From a virus, in the IMG/VR virus record IMGVR_UViG_3300020156_000025, positions 25,985 through 89,984 of that record: a DNA stretch of 64,000 nucleotides, one strand, 5' to 3'. The notes under the pieces are model-generated. The model was given only the letters and a program-made list of their open reading frames with translations. It was not told the origin of the DNA and searched no databases. A program made the position numbers and the translations under genes. This document shows, in pieces, positions 3,254 to 63,371 of the stretch; within the stretch, counting starts at the first letter, position 1, and every line of letters begins with the position of its first letter.

Positions 3254-4921
3254 ATGGCCGCATCTGCAAACGTGACGCTCGGGGGGAGGACCCGGTTGAA
3301 GGGATTCAAGGTGCCGGGACAACCCGCCCTTGAAGCCGCGTTGAACCGCTTGGCTACCGAGATCAATTCGATCCCGGACGTTCAGTTCGAGGGAGGACAG
3401 GGACTGGACGTGACGGAGCACAACGGTAAGATCGTTGTAGCATTGCGCAACGGTGCGCGGGGATGGCGTCCCCGTTACGAGCCGACGTTCGTGGACGGGA
3501 AGCTGCGCATCGGGCTAGGGACGGTGGGGTTGCACGCGGACGGGAACGGGGCGGGCGGGGTGGTCGAGCCGTATTTCCCTAGGTTCGAGGGGAAGGTGCT
3601 GAACCATGCGATCCCGCCCGAGCTGCCGGTGGAGCAGATAGACGACGGGGACAACAAGATCATCCTGCGCTGCTGTCTCTACGATTCTCGGATCGAGGTG
3701 GTGTCCGCGGAGGAGGACATGGACAAGGACGTGGGGGAGTGGATTATCACGCTCGCGACCTTTACCAAGGAGGGTGCGAAGATCTCGGACCTCCGGCACC
3801 TGTTCACTTCGGACGTGCTGATTCTGGACGCGTCGGAGTCGTGCGACATCGAAGGCTCGGACGATCCGGACCCGAGCGACGATTCCGACGGCGACGATAG
3901 CGACGATAGCGACGAGCCGCCGCCGTCCGATTCGGACGAGAGCGATGATTCCGACGATAGCTCGGGGAGCGGGGACGGGTGCTGCCCGGAAATCGCGCTC
4001 GACGCTACGGTGGTGAGTCCGGCGTCGCCGTTCTGTTTCTCCAGCGGGGATTCGCCGTATCCCTACTGGGTGGCGGGGTCGGTGAGTATTTCCAAGGCGT
4101 CCACCTGCGACGGATGCGAGGAAAAGCCCGTGTCGGTGCACGTGCAGGTGGGGGACGCGAGCACCAGTGCCAACCTGTTCCCGGGCGGTCCGCCCTTCAC
4201 GTTCCTGCTTCATCCGTCGTTCGGTTCGCCGTGCGCCACGGTCCCGGTGACGGCCACCATCGCTTCCCTTACCAGTGTGGCGGGGACCTGCCCGTGCTTC
4301 GCCACTAAGTCGGTGGACATCACCCTGCCCGGTCTGGAGCCGGACTGCGAATGCTCGGACGACTCCAGCGGAAGCTCCGACGATAGCGACGGAGGGGAGC
4401 TTCTGATGATGGCCCCGCCCGGGGAGATGATGCTGATGACGGAGGGTAGCGACGACTCCGCGCTCGATGACAAGGAGGCGGTGGTCGAGTCGTCCTTGTT
4501 CCCGACGGGGTATGCGGCGATGCGTTGCGTGGAGTCGCCGGAGACGTGGTTCACCGACACGTTCCGGGTGGAAATCACGGGGCGCGTCACGTTGCACCGG
4601 ATCGATGCAATGTTCGCCGACGTGTGCGATCCCGGGACGATCCGCGTTGTTTCCGCCGTGCCCGACTTGCCGCGACCTGTGGGATGTGTTGCACGCGAAT
4701 TCCCGCCGATGCACTGGAGTGTCTTGCTGAACCGCATGGTGCCGTCCTCGGAGGAGGGGGCGCATGTCGTGGTGCGCTGCGGATGGTTCTTGCGCCCGCG
4801 CAGCGTCATGGTCACGGTGGCCGGAATCCGCAAGGGCCGTTCGGGGCAGCGATTCGTGCCGAGGTCCAAGGAGGAATTCGACCGGAGCCAGGCGTTCTGG
4901 TCACAGCTCAAGGACCGATGA
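3254..4921 (+). CDS. Virion-associated protein with Ser-Asp repeats
   Basis: A 555-residue protein. The N-terminal ~190 residues look like a folded beta-rich domain. Residues ~195-240 are a low-complexity stretch of Ser-Asp and Asp-Asp-Ser units, followed by a cysteine-rich domain (motifs GCC, CDGCEE, CPC, CEC), a second shorter Ser-Asp stretch near residue 370, and a C-terminal domain of ~140 residues. The acidic linkers probably separate folded modules in a tail-tip or fibre-like protein. Its stop overlaps the start of the next gene. Family not recognised; virion role inferred from place and architecture. Confidence 0.55.
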   Translation: MAASANVTLGGRTRLKGFKVPGQPALEAALNRLATEINSIPDVQFEGGQGLDVTEHNGKIVVALRNGARGWRPRYEPTFVDGKLRIGLGTVGLHADGNGAGGVVEPYFPRFEGKVLNHAIPPELPVEQIDDGDNKIILRCCLYDSRIEVVSAEEDMDKDVGEWIITLATFTKEGAKISDLRHLFTSDVLILDASESCDIEGSDDPDPSDDSDGDDSDDSDEPPPSDSDESDDSDDSSGSGDGCCPEIALDATVVSPASPFCFSSGDSPYPYWVAGSVSISKASTCDGCEEKPVSVHVQVGDASTSANLFPGGPPFTFLLHPSFGSPCATVPVTATIASLTSVAGTCPCFATKSVDITLPGLEPDCECSDDSSGSSDDSDGGELLMMAPPGEMMLMTEGSDDSALDDKEAVVESSLFPTGYAAMRCVESPETWFTDTFRVEITGRVTLHRIDAMFADVCDPGTIRVVSAVPDLPRPVGCVAREFPPMHWSVLLNRMVPSSEEGAHVVVRCGWFLRPRSVMVTVAGIRKGRSGQRFVPRSKEEFDRSQAFWSQLKDR

Positions 4922-6648
4922 TCTTCGATGAATATTTCGACAAGGTGGTGCTGATCGCGATGGACCCTGCGGGGGAACGCGCGGCAAGGGCCGCGGGGGA
5001 GATGGTGCGGCTGGGTCTGTCGGACAAGACGGAGATCGTGCGCGGGATGCCCGGTAACGAGATGGGCAAGCCGGGATGGTGGCCGAACGGACGGGGTGCG
5101 TGGGGGTGCTACCTGTCGCACTTGGCGCTGCTGATGCGGATGAAGCAAGAGGGCTGGGAGACGTTGCTGCTGCTGGAGGAAGACGTGGTGTTCCAAGAGG
5201 ACACGGCAACGCTGCTGCCCGAGGTGATGGCGTCGCTGCCCTCGGACTGGACGCAGTTGTATCTCGGGGGCCAGCACAGGGTGCCGCCGCACCGGCTGCC
5301 CGGAACGCCCGCCCTTGTGAGGGGGAGTAGCATCCACCGCACTCATGCATACGCGGTGCACCGGAAGGGGTTGAACCATTTGATCGCGCACCTGATGGAA
5401 CTGCCCGCGTTCCAACAGGCGAAGAAAGGCGGGACGAAGCTGCACATAGACCACCATTACGAGATGGCTCACCGGGCCAACCGGTGGAAGGTCTATGCGC
5501 CGTCGTTCTGGCTGGCCGGGCAGGGTGCGGGGTGGTCGGAGATACGGGCCAAGCAAGTGACCGCCGCGTGGTGGCACCGGAAGGAGACGCACCGCGAATA
5601 CCGCGGCTTGCCGGTGCTGCTGGGGGAGGCTGCCGCGGCCAACTACGGGAACGACGAAACGGAGAAGACCTTGCAGGCGATGGCGGAGGAGGACCCGAGG
5701 GAATTCGAGCGCATCCTTGTGGTTCTCGCGCAACAGGCGTTCCTGCATCAAACCTTGCCCGCGATCCGAAAGGTTCGACCGTGGCAACGGGCATGGCTAG
5801 AGGCCAATTGGCCCGCCGGGGTGGCGCAGCCCGATGATTTCGACCGACTGAGGGATTACCCGAGGGCCAAGCTGTTCGAGCATTCTTGGCTGAATCCCGT
5901 GCGCCGGAAAACCAGAATCGCAACCGAGAACGATAACATGACACCTGATATTTCGACAGCCGGAGGGGGCAGCCCGTTGTTCGTGTTCAGCTCGCCGCGC
6001 AGCGGAAGCACGCTGCTGGTATCCATACTGGACGGGCACGGGGACATCACGATGAACGGGGAACGCCGGGATTTCCTGTGGAGTCTCCGCAATCTGTGGG
6101 ACCACCGGGGGGCTTTGCAGAAAAACTCCCCGCGGGCGTTCCTTCCGATCGACGAGCAGGTGCAACAGGGGAACTTCCCTTCGCACGTGAACCATTCGAC
6201 GGAAGAGTCGTGGGCGGAGGGGGTGCGGGCGCTGTTGCGCGGGTGGGTCAATCCGGGGGAAGGGGACCGTTGGTGGGGGATGAAGGACGTGCATGTCGCC
6301 AAGCTAGGGATGGGTATGGGGGTCGAGATGTGGAGCTGGCTCCAGACCGTGATGCCCGATGCCCGGATCGTGTTTCTGACGCGCGACACGGGAGCGGTGG
6401 AGAGGAGCATGGAGCGGACGCTGGCGTGGTGGGTGCCTAGTTACGGGAACTGCATCGGGAACTGTATGCGCAAGGTGAAGGTGCAGCAGAACGCCTTCCG
6501 GGAATATCACGCGCTCAACCCGTCCACCACGGCACTTGTGGATTACGAGGACCTGACGGATTTCGCCCGCTTGCAGGCGAGCCTAGGGACCATCGGGGTC
6601 AAGCTCGATCCGGAGGTGCACGCGGAAAGAATCGCGGTAAGATTGTGA
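4918..6648 (+). CDS. Fusion of a glycosyltransferase family 25-like domain and a sulfotransferase domain
   Basis: The chosen ATG overlaps the previous stop (ATGA). Residues 1-~330 resemble LPS-type glycosyltransferase family 25: an LSHLALL segment, LLLLEED with the acidic triad at 87-89, and a HTYA-like region. Residues ~350-576 look like a PAPS-dependent sulfotransferase: the 5'-phosphosulfate loop SSPRSGSTLL begins at 358 and a VFLTRD segment with a downstream Ser-Met-Glu-Arg run follows. Both parts are in one uninterrupted frame. An internal ATG at 5938 could also start the second domain alone, but no strong ribosome site precedes it. Position among tail genes suggests decoration of virion or host surface glycans; the substrate is unknown. 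Confidence 0.7.
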   Translation: MIFDEYFDKVVLIAMDPAGERAARAAGEMVRLGLSDKTEIVRGMPGNEMGKPGWWPNGRGAWGCYLSHLALLMRMKQEGWETLLLLEEDVVFQEDTATLLPEVMASLPSDWTQLYLGGQHRVPPHRLPGTPALVRGSSIHRTHAYAVHRKGLNHLIAHLMELPAFQQAKKGGTKLHIDHHYEMAHRANRWKVYAPSFWLAGQGAGWSEIRAKQVTAAWWHRKETHREYRGLPVLLGEAAAANYGNDETEKTLQAMAEEDPREFERILVVLAQQAFLHQTLPAIRKVRPWQRAWLEANWPAGVAQPDDFDRLRDYPRAKLFEHSWLNPVRRKTRIATENDNMTPDISTAGGGSPLFVFSSPRSGSTLLVSILDGHGDITMNGERRDFLWSLRNLWDHRGALQKNSPRAFLPIDEQVQQGNFPSHVNHSTEESWAEGVRALLRGWVNPGEGDRWWGMKDVHVAKLGMGMGVEMWSWLQTVMPDARIVFLTRDTGAVERSMERTLAWWVPSYGNCIGNCMRKVKVQQNAFREYHALNPSTTALVDYEDLTDFARLQASLGTIGVKLDPEVHAERIAVRL

Positions 6649-7208
6649 TGCAGGTGTTCCGGATCAGTGACGCGCCCCGCGAGGGGGAAACCCCGATAAA
6701 ACCCGTGTGGGGGTTGGGGAAGGTGCGGGGGAATTGCTCGGCGCAGGCGTCGGCGATGGCCGCGGTGCTGCGGACGGACGTGTATCCGGCGGTGGTGCTG
6801 GAGCACGACGCGGAGCGTCTGCGGGAGGGGTGGCCGGATTTTGCACAATGTGCAAACGCGGGCATGGACTGGTTGTGGTTGGGGGGTTCAACCATCTGGT
6901 GCGATGAGCGGGGGGAGGAAGTCCGGGACAGGCCGATGCCGTGGATGCCGTCTCCGGTGGCGGGGGTGGCGAAGGTGGACGGGCTCTACACGACGCACGC
7001 GGTGGCGATCCTGACGCCGGACGGGGCGATGCGGGCGCTGTGCGCCGCACTGCAAGGAATCCGCAAGGGGTGGCCGGTGGACGTGGCGATCATCATGGAG
7101 TGCAGGCATATGGGCTGGGAACGCTGGTGCGTGACCGAGCCGTGGTTCTGCCAGCGGGGGGTGAACCGCAGGTGGACGGACAAACCGCTGCCGCCGCCCT
7201 TGCCATGA
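6648..7208 (+). CDS. Small glycosyltransferase-like protein
   Basis: 186 residues. The start overlaps the previous stop. The segments VVLEHDAERL, DWLWLGG and YTTHAVAILT resemble parts of family 25 glycosyltransferases, and the gene sits between two other glycan-related genes, so I take it as a divergent or reduced relative. A complete acidic donor-binding motif is not clear. A perfect-looking dyad repeat at 6839 lies inside the gene. Confidence 0.4.
   Translation: MQVFRISDAPREGETPIKPVWGLGKVRGNCSAQASAMAAVLRTDVYPAVVLEHDAERLREGWPDFAQCANAGMDWLWLGGSTIWCDERGEEVRDRPMPWMPSPVAGVAKVDGLYTTHAVAILTPDGAMRALCAALQGIRKGWPVDVAIIMECRHMGWERWCVTEPWFCQRGVNRRWTDKPLPPPLP
6839..6857 (+). repeat. Dyad repeat copy inside a glycosyltransferase-like gene
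   Basis: TTTTGCA-CAATG-TGCAAAC, read in frame as FAQCANA. Confidence 0.65.
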
Positions 7209-7972: not shown

Positions 7973-10324
7973 ATGGAGCTGGTCCTCAACCTTAACACCG
8001 TCACCTTCGTTCAAAAGGTCGATGTGAGTCTGGAAGTCACGGGGTTTTCTTGCAAGGTGAGGGATACCTTGCAGCTCGACGTGAAATTCTCGAACGGTCT
8101 GGCGCTGGTCGCCCCGGGGGAGGAAGTATCGCTGGTGTTCGGTATCAAGGAGACGCTGGCCGACACGGAATTCCTGGCCTATATCGCGACGTGGACGGAG
8201 GTGGAGGCCGGACATTACCGGGGTCAGTTGTCGCTCAACACGGCGAATCTGGTGGGGGCCATCGGGAGTGCCGAATCGCTGGCCGCGCTCGGGGAGTTGA
8301 CGTGGAGCACGGACGGAGGGGAGCAATGGCAGTCCAGTCCGACGCTGAACGTGACGATCCGGGGGGACGTGGTGACGGGGCTGGAATCCGCGCCCTTGAA
8401 CATGCCCACGGCGAACGGGGTGCCGTCGCCCATCGACATTTCGGGGGAGCCGTTGAACGAGACGCTGGCAATGGCGTCGATCAACTCCACGCTGGTCGAT
8501 GCGGTGGACGGGGAGACCCTGACTTTGAACGGGGTGGTGTTCACGTTCCGGGATTACCCCGCGAGCGAGCCGCTCGACGTGCTGATCGCCATAGGGGACC
8601 CGGGTGCCACGCGGGCCAACCTTGCCGCGAAGCTGGTCACGTATGAGGCCAACACGCGCGTGATCGCGACGAACGGGTCCGGGATCTCGCTCACGTCCCG
8701 GGACCGCGGGGTGGACGGGAATGCCATGACTCTTTCGACGGACTCCGCGGGGTTTGAGGTCACGCCTTTCGCGGGCGGGGTGGACGGGACGCCGGGAGGA
8801 CGGGGGCAGTTGGCGTATTCGGACAACGGACTGACCTACGAATGCTCGGACGATTTTCCTTACACGTGGGTGGGGCATGCGACCGGGAACTCGTCGCAAG
8901 GGGCGCAGGGGGAGGCCGATGCCGGGAAGCTGGCGGAATTCGCGGCGGACGGGGCACTGGCCGCATCGGAGAAGTTCACGGTCCGGGACAACACGCCGCC
9001 CGCCGGAACGTGGGATGTCCGGTTGCGGTCATCGTCCGGGGTGCAGCGTGTCGAGTTCCAGCAGAACGCTCATGAGCTTCTGGTCGCCGCCCCGACGTTG
9101 ACGGGAGACCTGACGCAGACGCACCAGAACCGGAGTGGAACGATTCCGGCGGCGCGCTCCTACGCGACCGAGGCAGCCGCCCTTGCGGCCAATTCCTCGG
9201 GCAATACCAAATTGCTCAAGAACGGGGAGATCTACGAGGACGTGGCGAGCGGGGTGGTGCGGGCCGTGCCCGGATACCCCACGGTGACGACATCCAGTCC
9301 GGCAAGCGGAGGGTCCGTCACCTTGACCGATCTGGTGGATTCGCTGTATATCGTCAATTCTTCAGGGGTGTTGGCCGCGCTCACGGTGAACTTTCCGGGG
9401 GTGTCGGCGTGCCGGAACGGGCAGACCATCAGCATCCGGTTCGACTGCAACGTGACCGCACTGACGTGGGCGGCGGGATTAGCCACGATCCTTAACGCGC
9501 CGGTGTCGGCGGGGGCGAACCAGACATACACCTTCGTCTGCTACGGTGTGTCGGGACTGGGCAGCCCCGTGTGGCAGTGCGTTTCGCGCACCTTCCCCCA
9601 GTCGGAGGCGATCGAATCCTTGTGGGACATGCACCGCGTGGTGCAGTTGCCGTATTTCACTTCCGTGGTATCGGGGACGGCCTCAAGCTCGGCGGCTTTG
9701 CAGGTCCTCGGAATCGGGGTGCACTGCGGAACGTCGAACGGGAGTTACGCCCGCGGGATCGTGGGTGCATCGACGAATTTCGATCCGCAGACCACGGGAG
9801 GAAACATGCGCGCGGGGCAGCGCATGCGCTTCTGCGCCGTGGGGGAGTTCGTCGCTCTGGCGGTGGCCAACGGCGGGGTGCTCCGCATGCTGGTCGGGGC
9901 CACGGTCGCCGCTCCGCCCCTTGCCGACGCGAACGCGCTTTCCGCCGCGGGCTTCGGGGTCGAGTGGGCCTACGACGGTGCGAACTCCCGCATGCAGGTC
10001 AGGTTGGTGAGCCACAACGGCACGACCTACCAGACTTCCGCGTGGGCTCCGTTCCGTGCGGAACACAACCGCAGATGCGCGATCATTCTGGACCACGTGG
10101 GGGACGGGACGCTGAACCTTTACGCGGCGGAAAACGGACCGACGGACCGCGGGTGTCCGAGGCCCAATCCGGTCGCGGTGGCGACGTTGTTCGGGGTGCC
10201 CACGGGGACACTCGGCGGGGGCTATGTCGCGTTCGACGCCGTATCCGCATCCGCCGCATCCGCACCGTCCTTCGGATCGTCGCTGAGGTTCAAGCTCAGG
10301 GAGGTCAGGCTGGTGCTGGATTGA
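7973..10324 (+). CDS. Large tail fibre-like or receptor-binding protein
   Basis: 783 residues. The ATG at 7973 is chosen over an upstream GTG because a promoter -10 box overlaps that GTG region. The N-terminal ~180 residues look like a bacterial-Ig-type or base-plate anchor domain. The middle part contains NTPPAGTWDVRLR and a repetitive Gly, Ser, Asn, Thr-rich region; the C-terminal ~200 residues look like a carbohydrate-binding or jelly-roll type beta domain. The size, composition and place at the end of the tail series suggest a fibre or receptor-binding protein. It ends KLREVRLVLD, loosely like the IRLD tails of other gene products. No family assigned. Confidence 0.55.
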   Translation: MELVLNLNTVTFVQKVDVSLEVTGFSCKVRDTLQLDVKFSNGLALVAPGEEVSLVFGIKETLADTEFLAYIATWTEVEAGHYRGQLSLNTANLVGAIGSAESLAALGELTWSTDGGEQWQSSPTLNVTIRGDVVTGLESAPLNMPTANGVPSPIDISGEPLNETLAMASINSTLVDAVDGETLTLNGVVFTFRDYPASEPLDVLIAIGDPGATRANLAAKLVTYEANTRVIATNGSGISLTSRDRGVDGNAMTLSTDSAGFEVTPFAGGVDGTPGGRGQLAYSDNGLTYECSDDFPYTWVGHATGNSSQGAQGEADAGKLAEFAADGALAASEKFTVRDNTPPAGTWDVRLRSSSGVQRVEFQQNAHELLVAAPTLTGDLTQTHQNRSGTIPAARSYATEAAALAANSSGNTKLLKNGEIYEDVASGVVRAVPGYPTVTTSSPASGGSVTLTDLVDSLYIVNSSGVLAALTVNFPGVSACRNGQTISIRFDCNVTALTWAAGLATILNAPVSAGANQTYTFVCYGVSGLGSPVWQCVSRTFPQSEAIESLWDMHRVVQLPYFTSVVSGTASSSAALQVLGIGVHCGTSNGSYARGIVGASTNFDPQTTGGNMRAGQRMRFCAVGEFVALAVANGGVLRMLVGATVAAPPLADANALSAAGFGVEWAYDGANSRMQVRLVSHNGTTYQTSAWAPFRAEHNRRCAIILDHVGDGTLNLYAAENGPTDRGCPRPNPVAVATLFGVPTGTLGGGYVAFDAVSASAASAPSFGSSLRFKLREVRLVLD

Positions 10325-22663: not shown

Positions 22664-22682
22664 ATATGCACACTTTGCAAAA
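22664..22682 (+). repeat. Dyad repeat copy
   Basis: ATATGCA-CACTT-TGCAAAA, in the 47 bp gap between helicase and polymerase genes. Confidence 0.7.
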
Positions 22683-22704
22683 AGGCACGAAACGGAACGA
22701 CACG

Positions 22705-25596
22705 ATGAAAAGAAGAGCAAGCAAGCACATCAATAGCGTGGGTAATCTGGACGATCCGGACGTGGTGTTCGTGTGCGATTCGCCGTGGCAACAGGTGTGG
22801 GACGAAGGGGGGGTGATGACCGGACCGCAAATGGACATCGTGCGGGAGGCGTGCGCGGGGGCCGGGTTGAAGGGGAACCGCTGCGCGTTCATCACCTGTT
22901 CCCCGCCGATTCCGCCGGAGGCGGCGGCGACGGACGCGAGGACGAGGGATTTCCTCGCCTTGCACGCGGAGGAGTTCGCGGAGGAGTTGGGGCGCTTGCT
23001 GCCGACGGCGAAGCTGGTGGTGCCGTTCGGGAAAACCGCGCTGCGGATGGTGGCGGGGAAGTCGGTGGAGATTTCCAAGTGCCGGGGCACCGTGGGGAGG
23101 TTCGCGAACGCGGGGGAGGTGCCGGTGCTGCCGTTGTTCTCGCCCGCGCACGTGTTGCGCAAGCCCGAGGTGAGGGGGGTGTTCGAGTCGGACTTCGGGC
23201 AGATACGGGCGTTGCGGGAATCGGGCTGGGACGGGACGATCTTCGAGCGTTCGATCGCGGGGGCGCACTACGAGTGGGTGACGGACCTGTCGCCCTTGCT
23301 CGCGGAGAGGCCGAAGCGGCTGGCCTTGGACACCGAGACGCTGGGTTACGAGTGGCGGCACGGGAGGCGCATCCTGACGGTGCAATTGACGTGGAAGAAA
23401 GGGCACGCGTGGGTGGTGCCGTTGCAGCGGGGTTACTTCAACAATCCGGAGTTGCGGGGGGAATCGACCCGGCACCTGCCCTTGTTGTCGAAGGTGGACG
23501 TGCGGAGACTGGAAGGGCAGTTGCGGGAGCTGCTGGGGGACCCCCGGACCAAGGTGGTGGGGCACAACCTGAAATACGACCTCCACCACCTGCGCAACCA
23601 CGGGATCGAGGTGGCGAACTGGTATGCGGACACGATGCAGTTGGCGTTCCTCGCGGACGAGAACATGCTGTCGAAGTCGTTGGACGATTGCGCCCGGCGC
23701 TGGGTGCCGGAGCTGGGGGGGTATGCGGACGCGTTCAACACCGATCCGGTGCATCAAGGGAAGAGCAGGATGGATCTGGTGCCGCACGACAAGATGATCC
23801 GTTACGGGGGCGGGGACACGGATGCGTGCTTCCGCCTGTGCGAACGGTTGGTGGAGCTGGGGATGCAGGACGAGCGGCAATGGACCACGTTCCGGCGGGT
23901 TCAGATGCCGGGGTTGAGGACTTTTTTCGAGATGGAACGGAAGGGCATCCGGATCGACCGCGACGCGCTGCGCGAACTCGGGACGGTGCTGGCGAGGCAG
24001 GAGCAGGAGATGTATCAGTCGCTGATGCGGCAGGCCGCGGCCAAGGCTCCCGCCGTGCTGCGCAGGCACGAGGCGGCGGGGTTGTCGTTCACTCGGTCGG
24101 CGTTCACGGCGGACCTGTTGTTCTCGACCGACGGGTTCAAGTTGAAGCCGATCGTGTTCACGGACGGGACCAAGAACCTGCCGGACGAGGAGAAGATACC
24201 GAGCACGAGCACGAAAACGCACCTGCCCTTTTTCGACCATATCCCGTTCGTGGCGGAGTTGATCGAATACCAGCAGGTGCAGAAGATGCGCAGCACCTAC
24301 GTGGGATTGCCGGGAGGGGAGGAATCCGTGCTGCTCAAGCGGACGGCGAAAGGGAAGGTCAACGCGGCGGTGGTGCGGTTGTTCCGGGAGGCGGGAAGGG
24401 AGGATGAACTGCCCCCGGCCAAGACCGTGCCGGTGCGGTCGCGCAACCGGATGATGAAGATAGAGCCGGTGAAGGCGGAGGTGGTGGCCTCGGTGACATC
24501 GCCGAAGGGGGGGTTCCGGATCGACGTGGACACGGCGGGGGATTGCTGGAAGGTCGGGCAACGCGAACCGACCGGGTTCTGGCAGTATCTCGGGGAGGGT
24601 CTGGAGGGGGACATCATCCATCCTTCGTTCCGTCTGGACAATACGGTGACGGGCCGCTCGTCGTCGCAGAATCCGAACGCGCAGAATTTCCCGAAGCGGG
24701 GGAAGCTGGCGAAGGCATACCGGAAAATCTTCAAGCCCCGGCCCGGGTTCGTGTTCATCGAGTGCGACCTTTCGCAGGCTGAACTCCGGATCGCGGCGTG
24801 GATGGCGAACGATCCGGTGATGCTCCGCATTTACCGCGAGGGCGGGGACATCCATACGATGATCGCGGCCCGGTCGATGGGACTCACGGACGGGGCGTTC
24901 GCGGAACTTCCCGCGGAGGAACGCAAGGCGGCGCGGCAGAAGGCGAAGGCGGTGAACTTCGGGTTCCTCTACGGGATGTGGTGGAAGAAATTCAAGAATT
25001 ACGCCAAGACGCAATACGGGGTGTCGCTGACGGACCGGGAGTCGGAGAAGATGCGGGAAATGTTCTTCCGCACGTTCCCGGCGCTGGAGGGGTGGCACAC
25101 GGACATGAAGGCGTTCGTGAACCGGCACGGGTTCGTGCGTTCGTTGCACGGGGCGTTGCGGCGGTTGCCGGACATCAACTCCAACGACAAGGGGGTGCAG
25201 CAGGAGGCGGAGCGGCAGTCGGTGAACTCGCCCGTGCAACGCTTCGCGTCGGACGTGGGGATCATGGCGATGGCCAGGTTCGGGAGGGATTGCCCGTGGG
25301 ACGACATGTTCCCGGTGGCGTTCATCCATGACGCGCTCGTGGTGGAGGCGAGGGAGGAACGCGCGGAGGAGTGCGCGGCGGCAATGAAATATTGCATGGA
25401 GACGGTGCCGTTGGAGGCGTGGTTCGGAATCGTGCCGCCCTTGCCTATCGTGGCGGACGTGAGTATCGGAACCTCGCTGGGGGAGATGGAGGAGAGGCCG
25501 GACATCGTGGCCGCGATGCCCGCGTGGTTCCGTCCGGAACTCGACCTTGCGCCCCCGGCGGGGAGTGTTTTGCAAACCGTGCAAAATCGCGGGTGA
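22705..25596 (+). CDS. DNA polymerase I family with N-terminal uracil-DNA-glycosylase-like domain
   Basis: 963 residues. Residues ~14-190 resemble a family-4-type uracil-DNA glycosylase fold (FVCDSPW, CAFITCSPP, LVVPFGKTAL, PLFSPAHVLR). A 3'-5' exonuclease follows with DxE at D209/E211 and HNLKYDL. The polymerase has motif A DLSQAELR from D688, motif B KAKAVNFGFLYG and motif C with HDA at H875-D876. An insertion near 570-590 between exonuclease and polymerase parts carries PVRSRN at 576-581. The ATG at 22705 is preceded by GGAACGACACG without a clear Shine-Dalgarno. Role: main replicative polymerase. Confidence 0.9.
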   Translation: MKRRASKHINSVGNLDDPDVVFVCDSPWQQVWDEGGVMTGPQMDIVREACAGAGLKGNRCAFITCSPPIPPEAAATDARTRDFLALHAEEFAEELGRLLPTAKLVVPFGKTALRMVAGKSVEISKCRGTVGRFANAGEVPVLPLFSPAHVLRKPEVRGVFESDFGQIRALRESGWDGTIFERSIAGAHYEWVTDLSPLLAERPKRLALDTETLGYEWRHGRRILTVQLTWKKGHAWVVPLQRGYFNNPELRGESTRHLPLLSKVDVRRLEGQLRELLGDPRTKVVGHNLKYDLHHLRNHGIEVANWYADTMQLAFLADENMLSKSLDDCARRWVPELGGYADAFNTDPVHQGKSRMDLVPHDKMIRYGGGDTDACFRLCERLVELGMQDERQWTTFRRVQMPGLRTFFEMERKGIRIDRDALRELGTVLARQEQEMYQSLMRQAAAKAPAVLRRHEAAGLSFTRSAFTADLLFSTDGFKLKPIVFTDGTKNLPDEEKIPSTSTKTHLPFFDHIPFVAELIEYQQVQKMRSTYVGLPGGEESVLLKRTAKGKVNAAVVRLFREAGREDELPPAKTVPVRSRNRMMKIEPVKAEVVASVTSPKGGFRIDVDTAGDCWKVGQREPTGFWQYLGEGLEGDIIHPSFRLDNTVTGRSSSQNPNAQNFPKRGKLAKAYRKIFKPRPGFVFIECDLSQAELRIAAWMANDPVMLRIYREGGDIHTMIAARSMGLTDGAFAELPAEERKAARQKAKAVNFGFLYGMWWKKFKNYAKTQYGVSLTDRESEKMREMFFRTFPALEGWHTDMKAFVNRHGFVRSLHGALRRLPDINSNDKGVQQEAERQSVNSPVQRFASDVGIMAMARFGRDCPWDDMFPVAFIHDALVVEAREERAEECAAAMKYCMETVPLEAWFGIVPPLPIVADVSIGTSLGEMEERPDIVAAMPAWFRPELDLAPPAGSVLQTVQNRG
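25568..25586 (+). repeat. Dyad repeat copy, perfect arms
   Basis: TTTTGCA-AACCG-TGCAAAA; it encodes the last residues of the polymerase (VLQTVQNRG) and ends 19 bp before family promoter 4. Confidence 0.85.
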
Positions 25597-50757: not shown

Positions 50758-51606
50758 ATGCCACGCGTCCGAAATACCCCGCCTGCCGCTGATCCCGCGG
50801 TGCAGAACATTGCCGCGATCCGCCTTGAGCGGAAGGCACTGGAGGACCTGATCCCGCATCCACGCAACCCGCGGGTGCACCCGGAACCGGGAACGCCGCA
50901 ATGGAATGCGTTGCAGGCGTCGCTGGCGCACGATTATTTCGACCCGATGGTATGGAACGAGCGGAACGGGAAACTGGTCTCGGGACATTTCCGCAAGAAG
51001 GTGATGCGGCACAACGGGGTGACGCACGCGGACGTGGTAGTGGTGAGCTATGACGAACCGACACACCTTGCCCGGATGATCGCGGCGAACAAGGCGGCGG
51101 GGGAGGATGACGAGGACGCGCTGCGGGTGCTGTTCTCGGAACTGCGCGAGGAGGACGGGGGAATGCTCGCCCTTACCGCGTATGACGAGACCGAGCTGGC
51201 CAACCTGTTCCCCGATCTGGAGGACGAGCAGGACGAGGAGGACACGGGGGATTCGCAGGAAGCACAGATTTCGCCCGTGGGGACGAACGAGTTCAGGCAG
51301 AATATCGAGGCGATCCATGCGCCCGCGATTCCGGTGGCGAGGGGGGAGTTGTGGCAGTGCGGGGAGCACCTGATCGCGTGCATCGACCCGGTGCGGGAGG
51401 GCTACCGCATCGCGCCCTTGCTCGATGAAACGCGCTGGCTGTTCATTGCGCCCGACCCGTTCTGTCTGGTGGGATGGGTATACGAGGACTCGTATGCGCT
51501 GATTCTCCAGCCGAACGCGGTGGTGGCGTCTTACACGGTGAGTGCGTGGGCCTCGGCCCATCCCGATCAACCGCCCGTGCCGGTGGAGTGGCCGGAGACC
51601 GAATGA
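50758..51606 (+). CDS. ParB/sulfiredoxin-like protein with decayed methylase tail
   Basis: 282 residues. The N-terminal part has the ParB-like nuclease signature: PHPRNPRVHP, ALQASLAHDYFDPMVWN, LVSGHFRKKVMRHNG and ARMIAANKAAGE. In many phage relatives this domain is joined to an N6-adenine methylase. Here the remainder is a short remnant: ELWQCGEHLIACIDP and FIAPDPF stand where GDxWxLGEHRLxxGDS and TDPPY would be. The methylase catalytic motif is lost, so only the ParB-like part is likely functional. Confidence 0.65.
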   Translation: MPRVRNTPPAADPAVQNIAAIRLERKALEDLIPHPRNPRVHPEPGTPQWNALQASLAHDYFDPMVWNERNGKLVSGHFRKKVMRHNGVTHADVVVVSYDEPTHLARMIAANKAAGEDDEDALRVLFSELREEDGGMLALTAYDETELANLFPDLEDEQDEEDTGDSQEAQISPVGTNEFRQNIEAIHAPAIPVARGELWQCGEHLIACIDPVREGYRIAPLLDETRWLFIAPDPFCLVGWVYEDSYALILQPNAVVASYTVSAWASAHPDQPPVPVEWPETE

Positions 51607-51830: not shown

Positions 51831-52507
51831 CGACGGAGGAGCAATTGAAGGAGGCGCTGGAGGAGAACCGCAGGCTCAAGGAGGGGCTGCTGCGGAACCG
51901 CAACCATGACGAGCGGCTGTCGGCGTTCATGGCAAAATACCGCGCCTACCGGCAGGCGCTTGCCTCGGTGGGCGGGCCGCTGGACGAGGACGTGCTGCGC
52001 GCCGCGGTCATGGAGCTGTGCTTGCCCTACGAGCTGGAGCTGGAGACCTTGACCGCACGCTTGAACCGCTGGAGGGAGGCGATGCGGGAGGTCAACGTGG
52101 ACGCATACCGGGAACGGAAATCCGTCTTGGACGGGGAATACAGGGAACTTCCGATGCCGCTTGAGCAACGATCGCGCTACCGGGGGATCATGCCTAGGTT
52201 GCGGGGGGTGGCGAGGCAGCTCGGGTATGCGCTGGCGGTGCACGGATCGGAGTCCCGGGATTTCGACATCGTGGCCGCTCCTTGGACCGCGGAAGCGGTG
52301 ACGCCGGAGGAACTGGCGGAGGGGTTGCGGAAGGCTATCGGGCCACGGGCCACGTTCCTTGCGGACGCGCAGGGGGTCGCGTGGGCGGACAAGCCGCACG
52401 GGAGACGCGCGGTGCTGATCATGCTGGATCATCTGGATTTTGTGCACGGGATACTGGACCTGTCGGTGATGCCCTGCTTGACTGTGGCCCATGAGGACGC
52501 TGGCTGA
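51827..52507 (+). CDS. Nucleotidyltransferase-like protein
   Basis: 226 residues. An N-terminal helical/coiled-coil part (~1-90) and a C-terminal domain with YALAVHGSESRDFDIVAAPW, TPEELAEGLRKAIG and DKPHGRRAVLIML. The GS...RDFD pattern is that of pol-beta-type nucleotidyltransferase domains found in many phages. It overlaps the DpdA-like gene by 17 bp, so the two are co-expressed. Function unknown. Confidence 0.55.
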   Translation: MTTEEQLKEALEENRRLKEGLLRNRNHDERLSAFMAKYRAYRQALASVGGPLDEDVLRAAVMELCLPYELELETLTARLNRWREAMREVNVDAYRERKSVLDGEYRELPMPLEQRSRYRGIMPRLRGVARQLGYALAVHGSESRDFDIVAAPWTAEAVTPEELAEGLRKAIGPRATFLADAQGVAWADKPHGRRAVLIMLDHLDFVHGILDLSVMPCLTVAHEDAG

Positions 52508-53441
52508 AAATCCGCCCGAGGGGGTGAAGGTGACGGGGGGCGGGATGAGCGATCGTTTGCTCGGACGGTGGTTCTGCGTATCGTCGCTGGAACCCGCGAT
52601 TTACACCGCGATCGATGCGGGGGTGGTGGACTCGGTGCTGGTGTCGCTGTCCTACTGCAAGGCCCGGATGAAGGACGGGGTGCTGGGGAACACGCAGAAG
52701 TTCGACGATTTTCTGGCCCTTTGCGAGGACCGCGGGGTGAAGGTGTTCATGGACTGCGGGGCGTTCACGATGTGCATGGCGCTGGCGAAGGAGCACAACC
52801 TGCCCTTGTCAACGGTGTTCGCGTGGGAGGAGGACCAGTTCGGGGACCATCTCACCCGGTTGATGGAATTCTACATGGCCGCAATGTCGCGGTGGGAGGA
52901 CCAGTTGTGGGGCTACGTGGAGGTGGACGTGGGGCCGTGGGAACAGCGCGTCGCGCGCCGTTTGTGGATGGAGGCGCAGGGGATCGCGCCGATTCCGGTA
53001 TTCCGCGCCGCTACCGATCCGTGGGTGAGTCTGGACGTGCTGGGGCAACAATACGACCGCATCTGCATGGGGGGAGGGGTGAAGGCCCGGCCCGCGGTGC
53101 GGACGATGCTGTTCCACGAGCTGTCGCTGCGCTTGAGGCAATACCCGTGGCTATACGTGCACGCGCTGGGGATGACGTGGACGGGGAGCCTCACGTCGTT
53201 TCCCATCGGTTCGTGCGACTCGACTACGTGGTTGAATATCGCGAAATTCGGGAATGAGAAGACCGTGAGTCTGGCGGGATATACCTCGACCCGGACCAAC
53301 CGGGACGCGATGGAAGAACCGATGACCGGGGAATTCCGGAACGTGCTGCGCGTCGCCGGAATGGCGCAATATGGGCTGACCTCCCGGGTGCGGAGGGAAC
53401 AGAACGAATCGACGCGCTCCGCCCTTGCCGGGGAGGGGTGA
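52491..53441 (+). CDS. DpdA-like 7-deazaguanine DNA transglycosylase
   Basis: 316 residues. The TIM-barrel pattern of tRNA-guanine-transglycosylase relatives is visible: FMDCGAFT with D88, GYVEVDVGP with D146 (position of the catalytic Asp), YVHALGMTW, and SCDSTTW with D243. Phage DpdA proteins insert 7-deazaguanine bases into DNA and carry the same DSxxW motif. It sits with a ParB-like gene, a nucleotidyltransferase-like gene and, 8 kb further on, a QueC-type fusion. The exact DpdA subfamily cannot be fixed without alignment. Confidence 0.65.
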   Translation: MRTLAENPPEGVKVTGGGMSDRLLGRWFCVSSLEPAIYTAIDAGVVDSVLVSLSYCKARMKDGVLGNTQKFDDFLALCEDRGVKVFMDCGAFTMCMALAKEHNLPLSTVFAWEEDQFGDHLTRLMEFYMAAMSRWEDQLWGYVEVDVGPWEQRVARRLWMEAQGIAPIPVFRAATDPWVSLDVLGQQYDRICMGGGVKARPAVRTMLFHELSLRLRQYPWLYVHALGMTWTGSLTSFPIGSCDSTTWLNIAKFGNEKTVSLAGYTSTRTNRDAMEEPMTGEFRNVLRVAGMAQYGLTSRVRREQNESTRSALAGEG

Positions 53442-58363: not shown

Positions 58364-59098
58364 ATGATCGCAACCGATGAACTCAAAAAGGTAGGCTTCA
58401 AGGAACGCGCGGGGAGTCTTTATCTCGGCTATTGGCCGTGGATGTGGTGCAATGATGAGCAGACGTTCCCTCACGTGACGCGGAGGCACATGATCCACCG
58501 CGAGTGCGAGATGCTGGAGTGGCTGACGAAGCGGACCGCGAGGCACGAATACTTCATGAGCCTGACGCCCCGGACTTACTCCTACGGGAACCGCGGAACC
58601 GGGGATGAAACCTACGCGTCGAAACCGTTCGAGCCGTGGACGCTGACCCTCATGGGGAAGTTGAACGATTTGCTGGGGACCCGGTTCAACGTCTGTTTCC
58701 TGAACAAATACGACGACGAGCACCAGCACCTCGGGTGGCATGCGGACGACTTTCCGGGAATGATCTCGGAGGAGCCCATCGCTGTCGTGTCGTTCGGGGC
58801 GGAGCGGGAGATTTGGGTAAAACTCCAGAAAGAACCCTGCGATGCATGTGCCGGAACCGGATGCACTTTTCGGGAGGGAAGTTCGCCGGAAGACAAGATC
58901 GACTGCCCGCAATGCAAGGGCACCGGAAGCTGTCCCTCGAAAGGCATCGTGCCGCCTGAGCAACGCATCCTGCTGGAACAGGGTTCGGTGTTCCTGATGC
59001 CGCCCGGCTATCAGGACACGCATTTCCACCGCATCCCGAAACACTCCCGCCCTTGTGGTCCCCGGATCAGCCTCACGTTCCGATCTTTCGCCGATTAA
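58364..59098 (+). CDS. AlkB-like 2-oxoglutarate/Fe(II) dioxygenase with a DnaJ-type zinc-finger insert
   Basis: 244 residues from the ATG 9 bp behind the promoter. AlkB features: NKYDDEHQHLGWHADD with the Fe ligands H126 and D128, VSFGAEREIWVK, and a late HFHRIPKH...RISLTFR with the third His and the 2-oxoglutarate Arg. Between the strands, residues ~159-192 hold CDACAGTGC and CPQCKGTGSC, two C-x2-C-x-G-x-G repeats as in DnaJ zinc fingers, which ordinary AlkB proteins lack. Such enzymes repair or modify alkylated bases. Confidence 0.7.
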   Translation: MIATDELKKVGFKERAGSLYLGYWPWMWCNDEQTFPHVTRRHMIHRECEMLEWLTKRTARHEYFMSLTPRTYSYGNRGTGDETYASKPFEPWTLTLMGKLNDLLGTRFNVCFLNKYDDEHQHLGWHADDFPGMISEEPIAVVSFGAEREIWVKLQKEPCDACAGTGCTFREGSSPEDKIDCPQCKGTGSCPSKGIVPPEQRILLEQGSVFLMPPGYQDTHFHRIPKHSRPCGPRISLTFRSFAD

Positions 59099-60938: not shown

Positions 60939-63371
60939 ATGAACCGACCGAACGAACAGACCGAGCCCTCCGCCGCCCTGAAACCCGACGATGCCGGTAG
61001 CGTGCCGCGGGTGATGACCGATGCACGGACGATGGAGGCATTGCCGGAACCCTACCACAGCCGGGCCAAGACGAGGCTCAGGGAGTATCTTGTGGCGAAA
61101 TACAATCTCGGGGAGGGAGAACCCGTGACCGCGGAAGCGGTGAATTCCCTCGTGTCCGGGGGGCTCTATTACGCGTTCGTATGGGACGAGACGCCGGAAG
61201 GACTGAATTTCTGGCGTCAGGTGGATGACGCGCTCCACAAGGGGAAGGGAACGCCGCTGCCGCCCTTCCCGTCATCGGAAGGAACATCGCGGGTGATGAG
61301 GGTGGAGCAATCGACAGGCATCGCGCAGGCGCTGCCGGAGCAATACAGGGAGCGGGTCGAACTCCGGGTGCGGGAATACGTCCGCACGCTGCACACGGAT
61401 ACGGAAAAGATCGAGGCCGAAGTCCGCGAAAGGTTGAATTCGTCGTTATGGCAGGCGTTTCCGTGGGGCAGCACACCTGAAGGGTTTCGATTCTGGCGGA
61501 AGGTGGATGCTGCCGTGAAACTCAGAGCCGGGGCGGAGCTGCCGCCCCTGCCTCCGTTGATGATCCATGCGAGGAACCAAGCCGGGGAGGTGGTAGCCAC
61601 GGCAGTGTATGACGACCCGGTGCGGAAGGACGAACCCGAACCCCCGCCCTTCGCGGTGGGGGACTTGGTGACGTTCCGGCTCAAGACCCGTGCGGGAACG
61701 GCCCGGGTAACCGCGGTGGATGGTAACGGGGTGACGCTGGACAGGATGCTCGGGGGGTGGAACCGATGGGAGACCCACCTGCTGCGCAAGGCCGGGGAGG
61801 CGGAGAGTCCGGAGAAAAAACAGGAAGCGGCATTGAAGGACAAGATCACCGCCGAGGTGCGGGGAGCGTTGAAAGAGGACAGGAAAACGATCGGGCCGTC
61901 CTTGGGGCAGGAGAAGGTGAAGCTACCGAGACTCAACAAAGGGGATCTGGTGATGGTGGAACGGTTCACTCCCGAATCCGGGGAGGGGATTCCGTTCATC
62001 ATGGAGATGGAGAAGATGGTGGGGCAGATCGAGACCGTTACCGCGGTGTATGCCAACGGGGCCTGCCGGGTCAATAATTGCATATGGCCGCGGAGGGCGT
62101 TGAAGAAGGTGATCGCGGAGGTCATACCGAACGAAGAACCGCGGGGGGAGGAGAAAGAAACTCCGTCCTTGGAGGAGAAGTTACAATGGTCGGTCAACAC
62201 CATACCCGCACCGCGCGCACGTCTGAAGACCGTAGGGAAGAAAGAAGAAAAAGCCCAGCCGTGGGGAATCGTGAAGAGATACCGTGCGGGAGACAAGACG
62301 GTGAGGATTGCCACCCGGAACGGACAACTGGACTACCCGCTGGATGGAATCGAGCTGCACCCGGAGGATGACAGGGAGGCCACCGAAAGGATCAGGGCAC
62401 GTAAGCAGAGGGGGCAGGAGATCGAGGAGAAACGGAAAGAAAAGGAACCGGTCTTGCAAACTTTGCAAAAAGAGGAGCCGCCTCATGACCCCTCCGCCAA
62501 GGACAAGCCCCGGCTGGTGATCCTGTATTCGGGGGGCTTCGACTCGCTGGCCATGCTGAGAGTAGCGAAGGGCAAGCAGGAGGAGCACGGAACGTGGTCG
62601 GAGATCGTGTGCCTGACGGTGGGAATGGAGCACGGGTATGCCGCCGCCGAGTCCGCCGCGATCCGACGGCAACACGCCGCGGGGGAGTTCAAGGGGGTGA
62701 GGCATGTGAACCTCGGGCTGCCCTTGCACGTGTTGCACGGGAAGGAACTGCCGCAGGGAGGACAGGGGAGCCAGATCATCCCGATGCGCAACCTGATGCT
62801 CGCTTCCGTCGCGTCGATGCTCGGAGGGGAAATCTGGTTGGGGGCGTTGAAGGGGGAACAGCTCGGGAAGGAGAGGGACAAGTCGGAGGAGTTCCGCCGC
62901 AGGTTGAACCACGTGCTGGGATACACGGGGGAGGGAATCGGGCACAAGGCGGAGCTGATGTTCCCGTTCCAGAACTACACCAAGACGATGCTGATGGAGC
63001 GGGTGGTGACCCGGCTAGGGTGCGGGGCGCTCGCGGACATGCTGGAACGCACATCGTCGTGCTACCTGCCGGACGAGGAGGGGATGGCGTGCGGAACCTG
63101 CCTCGCTTGCGTGAAGCGGACGATGGCCGTGGTGGGGGCGACGGGATTCTCGGTCCCGAACCTGTCTTGGCAGGCCGTAAGGACGACGATGCACGCCCCT
63201 TATGCGCAGGAGCTGCGGAAGGCGATCGGACTCGCGACCGGGGACAACTACGACAAGGAGCGGTTCACGGAGGACCGCGTGCTGGAGTTCCGCAGGGTGG
63301 AGGCCCTGATCGTGGCGGCGGGTATCTGGAACGCCGTGCAGGGAATGCCCCGTAGCAAAGACAATCCGTGA
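60939..63371 (+). CDS. QueC-type 7-cyano-7-deazaguanine synthase domain fused to duplicated phage domains
   Basis: 810 residues. Two similar ~80-residue units at ~32-110 and ~128-212 (ALPEPYHSRAKTRLREY / ALPEQYRERVELRVREY, then TPEGLNFWRQVDDAL / TPEGFRFWRKVDAAV) form an internal duplication. Three small SH3- or KOW-like segments with GDLV/GDKT follow to ~500. The C-terminal ~280 residues are QueC-like: ATP-pyrophosphatase loop SGGFDS at 531-536, then zinc-site Cys 708, 718, 721 and 724. QueC makes preQ0. A dyad repeat at 62452 lies at the junction to the QueC part. Confidence 0.7.
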   Translation: MNRPNEQTEPSAALKPDDAGSVPRVMTDARTMEALPEPYHSRAKTRLREYLVAKYNLGEGEPVTAEAVNSLVSGGLYYAFVWDETPEGLNFWRQVDDALHKGKGTPLPPFPSSEGTSRVMRVEQSTGIAQALPEQYRERVELRVREYVRTLHTDTEKIEAEVRERLNSSLWQAFPWGSTPEGFRFWRKVDAAVKLRAGAELPPLPPLMIHARNQAGEVVATAVYDDPVRKDEPEPPPFAVGDLVTFRLKTRAGTARVTAVDGNGVTLDRMLGGWNRWETHLLRKAGEAESPEKKQEAALKDKITAEVRGALKEDRKTIGPSLGQEKVKLPRLNKGDLVMVERFTPESGEGIPFIMEMEKMVGQIETVTAVYANGACRVNNCIWPRRALKKVIAEVIPNEEPRGEEKETPSLEEKLQWSVNTIPAPRARLKTVGKKEEKAQPWGIVKRYRAGDKTVRIATRNGQLDYPLDGIELHPEDDREATERIRARKQRGQEIEEKRKEKEPVLQTLQKEEPPHDPSAKDKPRLVILYSGGFDSLAMLRVAKGKQEEHGTWSEIVCLTVGMEHGYAAAESAAIRRQHAAGEFKGVRHVNLGLPLHVLHGKELPQGGQGSQIIPMRNLMLASVASMLGGEIWLGALKGEQLGKERDKSEEFRRRLNHVLGYTGEGIGHKAELMFPFQNYTKTMLMERVVTRLGCGALADMLERTSSCYLPDEEGMACGTCLACVKRTMAVVGATGFSVPNLSWQAVRTTMHAPYAQELRKAIGLATGDNYDKERFTEDRVLEFRRVEALIVAAGIWNAVQGMPRSKDNP
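62452..62470 (+). repeat. Dyad repeat copy at a domain junction
   Basis: TCTTGCA-AACTT-TGCAAAA, encoding VLQTLQK about 55 bp before the QueC-type domain. Confidence 0.7.

Follow-up and report, generated by a model that had tools for sequence, protein, structure and literature searches.

A phage QueC-family domain fused to a duplicated TPEG domain in a virus with 7-deazaguanine pathway genes

Why does a virus carry a QueC-family enzyme at the end of a protein of 810 residues, and could that enzyme still serve the virus's own DNA modification pathway? The gene lies in a window of 64,000 nucleotides, bases 25985-89984 of an 89,984-base IMG/VR virus record; positions below are those of the window unless the record is named. 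An arm built into QueC bears on how a free base reaches DNA and not host tRNA, and its role can be tested by truncation.

The fusion gene is one continuous frame

The gene runs uninterrupted from ATG to stop (Table 1). It is strongly favoured by the gene model (score 222), and its GC3 is high throughout (0.68-0.90) and even across the QueC junction. Because of this continuity and the preference of the gene model, no frameshift or joining of two genes is visible, which was one of the flaws that the initial annotation had named as fatal to its reading. Its claim that QueC is fused to a duplicated phage domain is borne out by the open frame, the PF06508 match and the two TPEG copies, and we regard the fused frame and the TPEG repeat as firm. 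No clear Shine-Dalgarno sequence precedes the ATG, which leaves the precise start of the gene uncertain. An AAGGA-like site precedes TTG codon 506, so that internal initiation at this codon, possibly giving a shorter QueC product, may also occur.

Table 1. Features of the fusion protein and of the associated pathway genes
Feature	Position	Strand	Remarks
TPEG-TPEG-SH3-like segments-QueC fusion gene	60939..63371	+	single open frame, 810 aa
TPEG domain copy 1	61023..61271	+	residues 29-111; phrog_16354/25460/10949; repeat HMM 29-108
TPEG domain copy 2	61314..61562	+	residues 126-208; repeat HMM 128-202
Two SH3-like (Mind-bomb SH3_15-like) segments	61623..62147	+	residues ~229-290, ~321-403; weak
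Third barrel-like segment	62259..62361	+	residues ~441-474; AlphaFold strands
QueC-family domain, phage 'DK' clade	62505..63368	+	residues 523-810; PF06508, alignments, tree, 3bl5 fold match
DpdA-like DNA guanine transglycosylase	52491..53441	+	phrog_887, 52.5 bits
QueD	record 5000-5530		115 bits; Pfam also
QueE	record 5587-6291		126 bits; Pfam also
FolE	record 6293-6955		198 bits; Pfam also

The QueC domain keeps most of the active site and lacks two defining motifs

The C-terminal ~290 residues belong to PF06508, the Pfam QueC family (49.8 bits against a cut-off of 22, residues 526-731), and the fusion protein matches phrog_1550 with 83 bits. The domain is marked by SGGFDS (531-536), E571, IPMRN (614-618), D647-K648, K682 and cysteines 708, 718, 721 and 724. 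Aligned with E. coli QueC, whose numbering is used for single positions below, it retains the phosphate loop, E42, P97, R99, N100, D133, F138, K165, Y189 and the zinc cysteines, and none of the residues shared without exception by canonical, Gat-QueC and phage QueC is missing. SGGFDS stands for the canonical SGGxDS phosphate loop and IPMRN for the VPxRN motif with its essential Arg, while the zinc motif reads C708-x9-C718-xx-C721-xx-C724, with a first spacing of 9 versus 8 in the canonical C(x)8CxxCxxC. Two motifs are missing. In place of YxQxHxxE, with the essential Y35, the domain has M, H and Y at positions 35, 37 and 39, E42 being retained, and in place of YPDC, with the essential Y131, it has E-R-D-K at 131-134, D133 being retained. 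As these two motifs are defining ones, we do not class the domain as canonical QueC by its sequence.

In E. coli QueC, Y35, R99, Y131 and Y189 are essential (PMC13329287); in Cap9, the residue corresponding to Y131 stacks on the deazaguanine and the one corresponding to D133 reads it (PMC13279940). Given these Cap9 roles, the fusion QueC would have kept the base-reading Asp and lost the stacking Tyr; as a guess, the Tyr at position 39 could take the place of the latter. With Met at 35 and Glu at 131, preQ0 synthesis is uncertain for the fusion and for its clade as a whole. The domain had been described as complete-looking, with the loss of essential residues on alignment as a test of that view. 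The PP-loop and the four-Cys zinc site are indeed complete and R99 and Y189 are kept, but Y35 and Y131 are replaced, here and in nearly all of the phage clade. In an AlphaFold model of residues 215-810 the QueC part is confident; the solved fold that fits it best belongs to B. subtilis QueC (3bl5; E 2.4e-07, TM by target 0.71), followed by QatC.

The change of active site is shared by a phage clade, the N-terminal extension is not

A profile scan of IMG/VR with the QueC domain gave 126 relatives, of which 80 were kept, nearly all of them short genes in which SGGxDS lies close to the N-terminus, at most tens of residues in. Rescanning with the nearest subclade added 19 loci, and the arm was absent from all of them. 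Across the ~100 related phage loci no other QueC has the ~520-residue N-terminal extension; in bacterial and archaeal genomes a scan matched the QueC part alone, and querying IMG/VR with the single full-length fusion protein returned no relative. The TPEG-SH3-like-QueC fusion is new to the collections searched. A shared extension, considered because the phrog_1550 match starts at residue 443, was dropped, since residues 400-524 alone match nothing. An ancestral architecture among the terminase relatives L193 and L194 was also rejected, the QueC-like match in the L194 record looking PAPS-reductase-like.

In a maximum-likelihood tree, 57 rows including the fusion QueC stand apart from canonical QueC, Gat-QueC and the Campylobacter phage QueC (support 100/99), forming a clade that is almost wholly phage. 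The fusion sits on a long branch, so its position inside the clade (support 97/93) is less sure. The clade keeps the ATP loop, R99, D133 and the zinc site without Y35 and Y131: in 59 non-redundant relatives, three of which group with canonical QueC, Y35 is retained in 4 and Y131 in 3, whereas Lys replaces the Cys of YPDC at position 134 in 51 and Tyr occupies position 39 in 41. The passages of the literature covered here hold no account of this clade-wide change. That a clade without two residues needed by the E. coli enzyme still occurs in complete pathways implies either that the signature in the literature is drawn too narrowly or that another base is made.

Two further architectures were seen on other contigs. 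A 650-residue protein (L243:5004-6956) has SGGxDS and a Cys-rich region after ~150 residues, with weak kinship to QueC and no pathway genes nearby, and one phage contig carries both a short QueC of the clade kind and a protein the size of Gat-QueC (L090:6004-6651 and 8064-9509).

The same record encodes FolE, QueD, QueE and a DpdA-like protein

Upstream of the window the record reads QueD, QueE, FolE, one further gene and then the large terminase. The initial annotation had looked to the host, or to elsewhere in the phage, for the precursor; the second of these is where the genes lie, just outside the window, so that supply by the host need not be assumed. DpdA, which it had proposed as a possible partner, is also present in the phage. 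The DpdA-like protein has no Pfam match, and it shares D88, D146 and D243 with DpdA of phage CAjan, in which dpdA is needed for DNA modification (PMC6884629). In that paper, Hutinet et al. tie the set of FolE, QueD, QueE, QueC and DpdA to dPreQ0 in phages. That set is present in our record, its QueC member being non-canonical. QueF was not found in the record, where the sole match was the homologous FolE. In the linear record QueC lies ~80 kb from QueD-QueE-FolE, and no terminal repeats that would join the record ends and bring QueC near QueD were found.

The same surroundings recur among the relatives: at least one of FolE, QueD, QueE and DpdA lies within 6 kb of QueC at 75 of the 80 IMG/VR loci, and DpdA itself at 56/80, counts that are not independent because some loci are near-copies.

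Other genes of the window are recorded here as observations. A ParB-like gene (phrog_620; 50800-51606) lies shortly upstream of dpdA, an ordering also found in Arthrobacter phage Sonali, where a ParB-like gene directly precedes dpdA. An AlkB-like 2OG-Fe(II) oxygenase (58364-59098; PF13532, 57 bits) has an inserted CxxCxGxG zinc-finger-like stretch at residues ~157-191. The family A DNA polymerase (22675-25596) is uracil-DNA glycosylase-like at residues 23-165, with PF03167 at 21.5 bits, below the cut-off of 24.3, and a 576-residue protein (4918-6648) weakly matches a glucosyltransferase family (phrog_2835, 17.7 bits).

The N-terminal arm contains two TPEG domains and weaker barrel-like segments

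Within residues 1-214, two stretches each match phrog_16354, phrog_25460 and phrog_10949. The two copies of the TPEG(L/F)xFW domain that had been noticed by eye are therefore real. They are ~40% identical, and both keep the invariant W/TPEG/FW residues despite differing at ~60% of positions; a profile built on them found no further match among the phage's predicted genes. The homologue search and modelling that had been proposed for this half gave relatives in phage families and none among solved structures. Copy 1 is modelled by AlphaFold as three helices (pLDDT 89.5), and the domain model had no PDB match and weak structural matches to uncharacterised phage proteins.

A search of IMG/VR with the DNA pattern W..TPEG..FW returned 98 contigs. 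The encoding frames mostly specify phage proteins of 65-170 residues, usually stand-alone and often in tandem clusters, some of which end in KGTPLPPLP, much like copy 1; phrog_16354 matches 54 of the 67 members scanned. In some longer phage proteins TPEG is N-terminal to DUF3310 (60.9 bits against a cut-off of 24). This is the only firm partner, since the matches to the dATP/dGTP diphosphohydrolase N-terminal domain (PF18909) and DUF1599 fall below cut-off and were rejected as such. With the same queries as for the QueC loci, FolE, QueD, QueE or DpdA was found near none of 102 TPEG loci. By its family matches and models, TPEG is a widespread phage module to which neither family nor fold assigns a function. 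TPEG genes are also clustered within single contigs (L105, with six frames inside 3.7 kb, L139 and L152), which suggests local duplication of a small phage gene.

The region between TPEG and QueC is less well defined. SH3_15 matches residues 238-379 with 20.4 bits, below the cut-off of 24, and AlphaFold predicts strands at low pLDDT in the first two SH3-like segments. The third barrel-like segment has no family match of its own; it is modelled at moderate confidence (pLDDT about 66-88) and runs into a long helix before QueC. The linkers of the arm are long and of low confidence, and residues 215-525 match nothing in phage records or in any fetched locus except their own. Of the three small barrels proposed for the arm, the third is thus the better modelled and the first two are poor, and on sequence and model 'three barrels' seems plausible but weak.

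Proposed function of the fusion and alternative readings

Most likely, judging from sequence and gene content, the C-terminal domain works as the QueC of the phage 7-deazaguanine DNA modification pathway. By homology, the phage's own FolE, QueD and QueE would make 7-carboxy-7-deazaguanine (CDG), and the QueC domain would convert its carboxylate to the amide (7-amido-7-deazaguanine, ADG) with ATP and ammonia, probably carrying ADG on by dehydration to the nitrile, preQ0. DpdA would then swap the modified base into the phage DNA, which would thereby be protected against host restriction. The TPEG pair and SH3-like segments would have been added onto an ordinary phage QueC as an arm that most likely binds, bringing QueC close to DpdA, the replication machinery or another partner. 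To the whole of this reading, a QueC-step enzyme with an added arm that places it beside a partner, we give a probability of about 0.5. Docking of the arm and channelling to DpdA are what we infer, and a link of QueC to DpdA has precedent: Gat-QueC of phage 9g did not complement an E. coli queC mutant for tRNA-Q and yet supplied DpdA, which its authors read as channelling (PMC6884629). TPEG domains that precede DUF3310, and perhaps other nucleotide-metabolism domains, in other phages also favour this reading. Against the reading as a whole count the loss of Y35 and Y131 and the ~80 kb between QueC and QueD-QueE-FolE in the linear record. Against a role for the arm stand TPEG loci without a link to the pathway and a TPEG model without a structural relative that suggests binding. 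As no other QueC has the arm, conservation does not show it to be functional.

It is possible, if doubtful, that QueC works in the pathway with its N-terminal half as a passenger: small phage genes would have been joined to queC through loss of stop codons, leaving the enzyme's action unchanged. TPEG proteins of 65-120 aa that mostly stand alone, often in tandem clusters, would have supplied the material, and the uniqueness of the fusion among ~100 relatives, the linkers and the possible internal start fit such an origin. However, the retention of W/TPEG/FW in both diverged copies and a frame intact over 520 arm codons suggest selection on the arm.

The loss of Y35 and Y131 in the clade also raises the unlikely case that its enzymes stop at the amide, QueC making ADG and the phage DNA carrying dADG. 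In Campylobacter phages CP220 and CPt10 all dG is replaced by dADG (cited in PMC8306585), and the QueC of the related CP21 has Phe at 131. But CP21 QueC falls outside the clade of the fusion in our tree, and we found no phage of that clade whose DNA chemistry is known.

Quite unlikely is a broader scheme in which TPEG serves phages generally as a docking tag, gathering at the replication or modification machinery enzymes that make nucleotides or modify bases (DUF3310, a dNTP-diphosphohydrolase-like protein, QueC), with the fusion as a physical link that channels the modified base to DpdA.

We consider it very improbable that the domain conjugates CDG to protein, as in Cap9 and as proposed for QatC, and makes no free base. 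QueC folds have been repurposed in this way (PMC13279940 and PMC13329287), the active site is altered and QatC ranks high among the fold matches. Against this, the record genes scanned include no recognisable CD-NTase or QatABD, the clade's neighbourhood is that of a base pathway, the deazaguanine-reading Asp is kept, unlike in QatC, and the fusion's own start, MNRP, has no Gly of the kind used in the Cap9 system. An artefact of assembly or frameshift joining two genes is close to negligible: the architecture is unique and its source is an IMG/VR contig known from sequence alone, but the 810 codons are open with even composition and the junction lies more than 1 kb from the contig end.

Comparison with known systems

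The defence proteins QatC and Cap9 share the QueC fold with the fusion, and QatC is also extended at its N-terminus; they belong, however, to defence operons and have a protein substrate, whereas the context of the fusion is a base pathway, and in QatC two Thr replace the YxD pair. Closer in architecture are the phage and archaeal Gat-QueC proteins (phage 9g, PaMx25), which likewise carry an N-terminal domain on QueC in a DpdA phage. In them the added domain is a glutamine amidotransferase, and Y35 and YPD are kept, whereas the fusion, of another clade, has no GATase Pfam match and an N-terminus that matches TPEG families.

The QueC enzymes of E. coli, B. subtilis (3BL5) and phage CAjan have in common with the fusion SGGxDS, E42, PxRN, D133, K165, Y189 and the four-Cys zinc site, as well as the pathway partners FolE, QueD and QueE. 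Unlike the fusion, they are free enzymes of ~220 residues with no N-terminal arm, and they have both YxQxHxxE and YPDC. Stenotrophomonas phage Moby gp041 (249 aa) belongs to the fusion's clade, with Y35 and Y131 lost and D-K for D-C, and is a stand-alone QueC without extension beside FolE, DpdA and QueE; stand-alone phage QueC of this type is about 27-33% identical to the QueC domain of the fusion.
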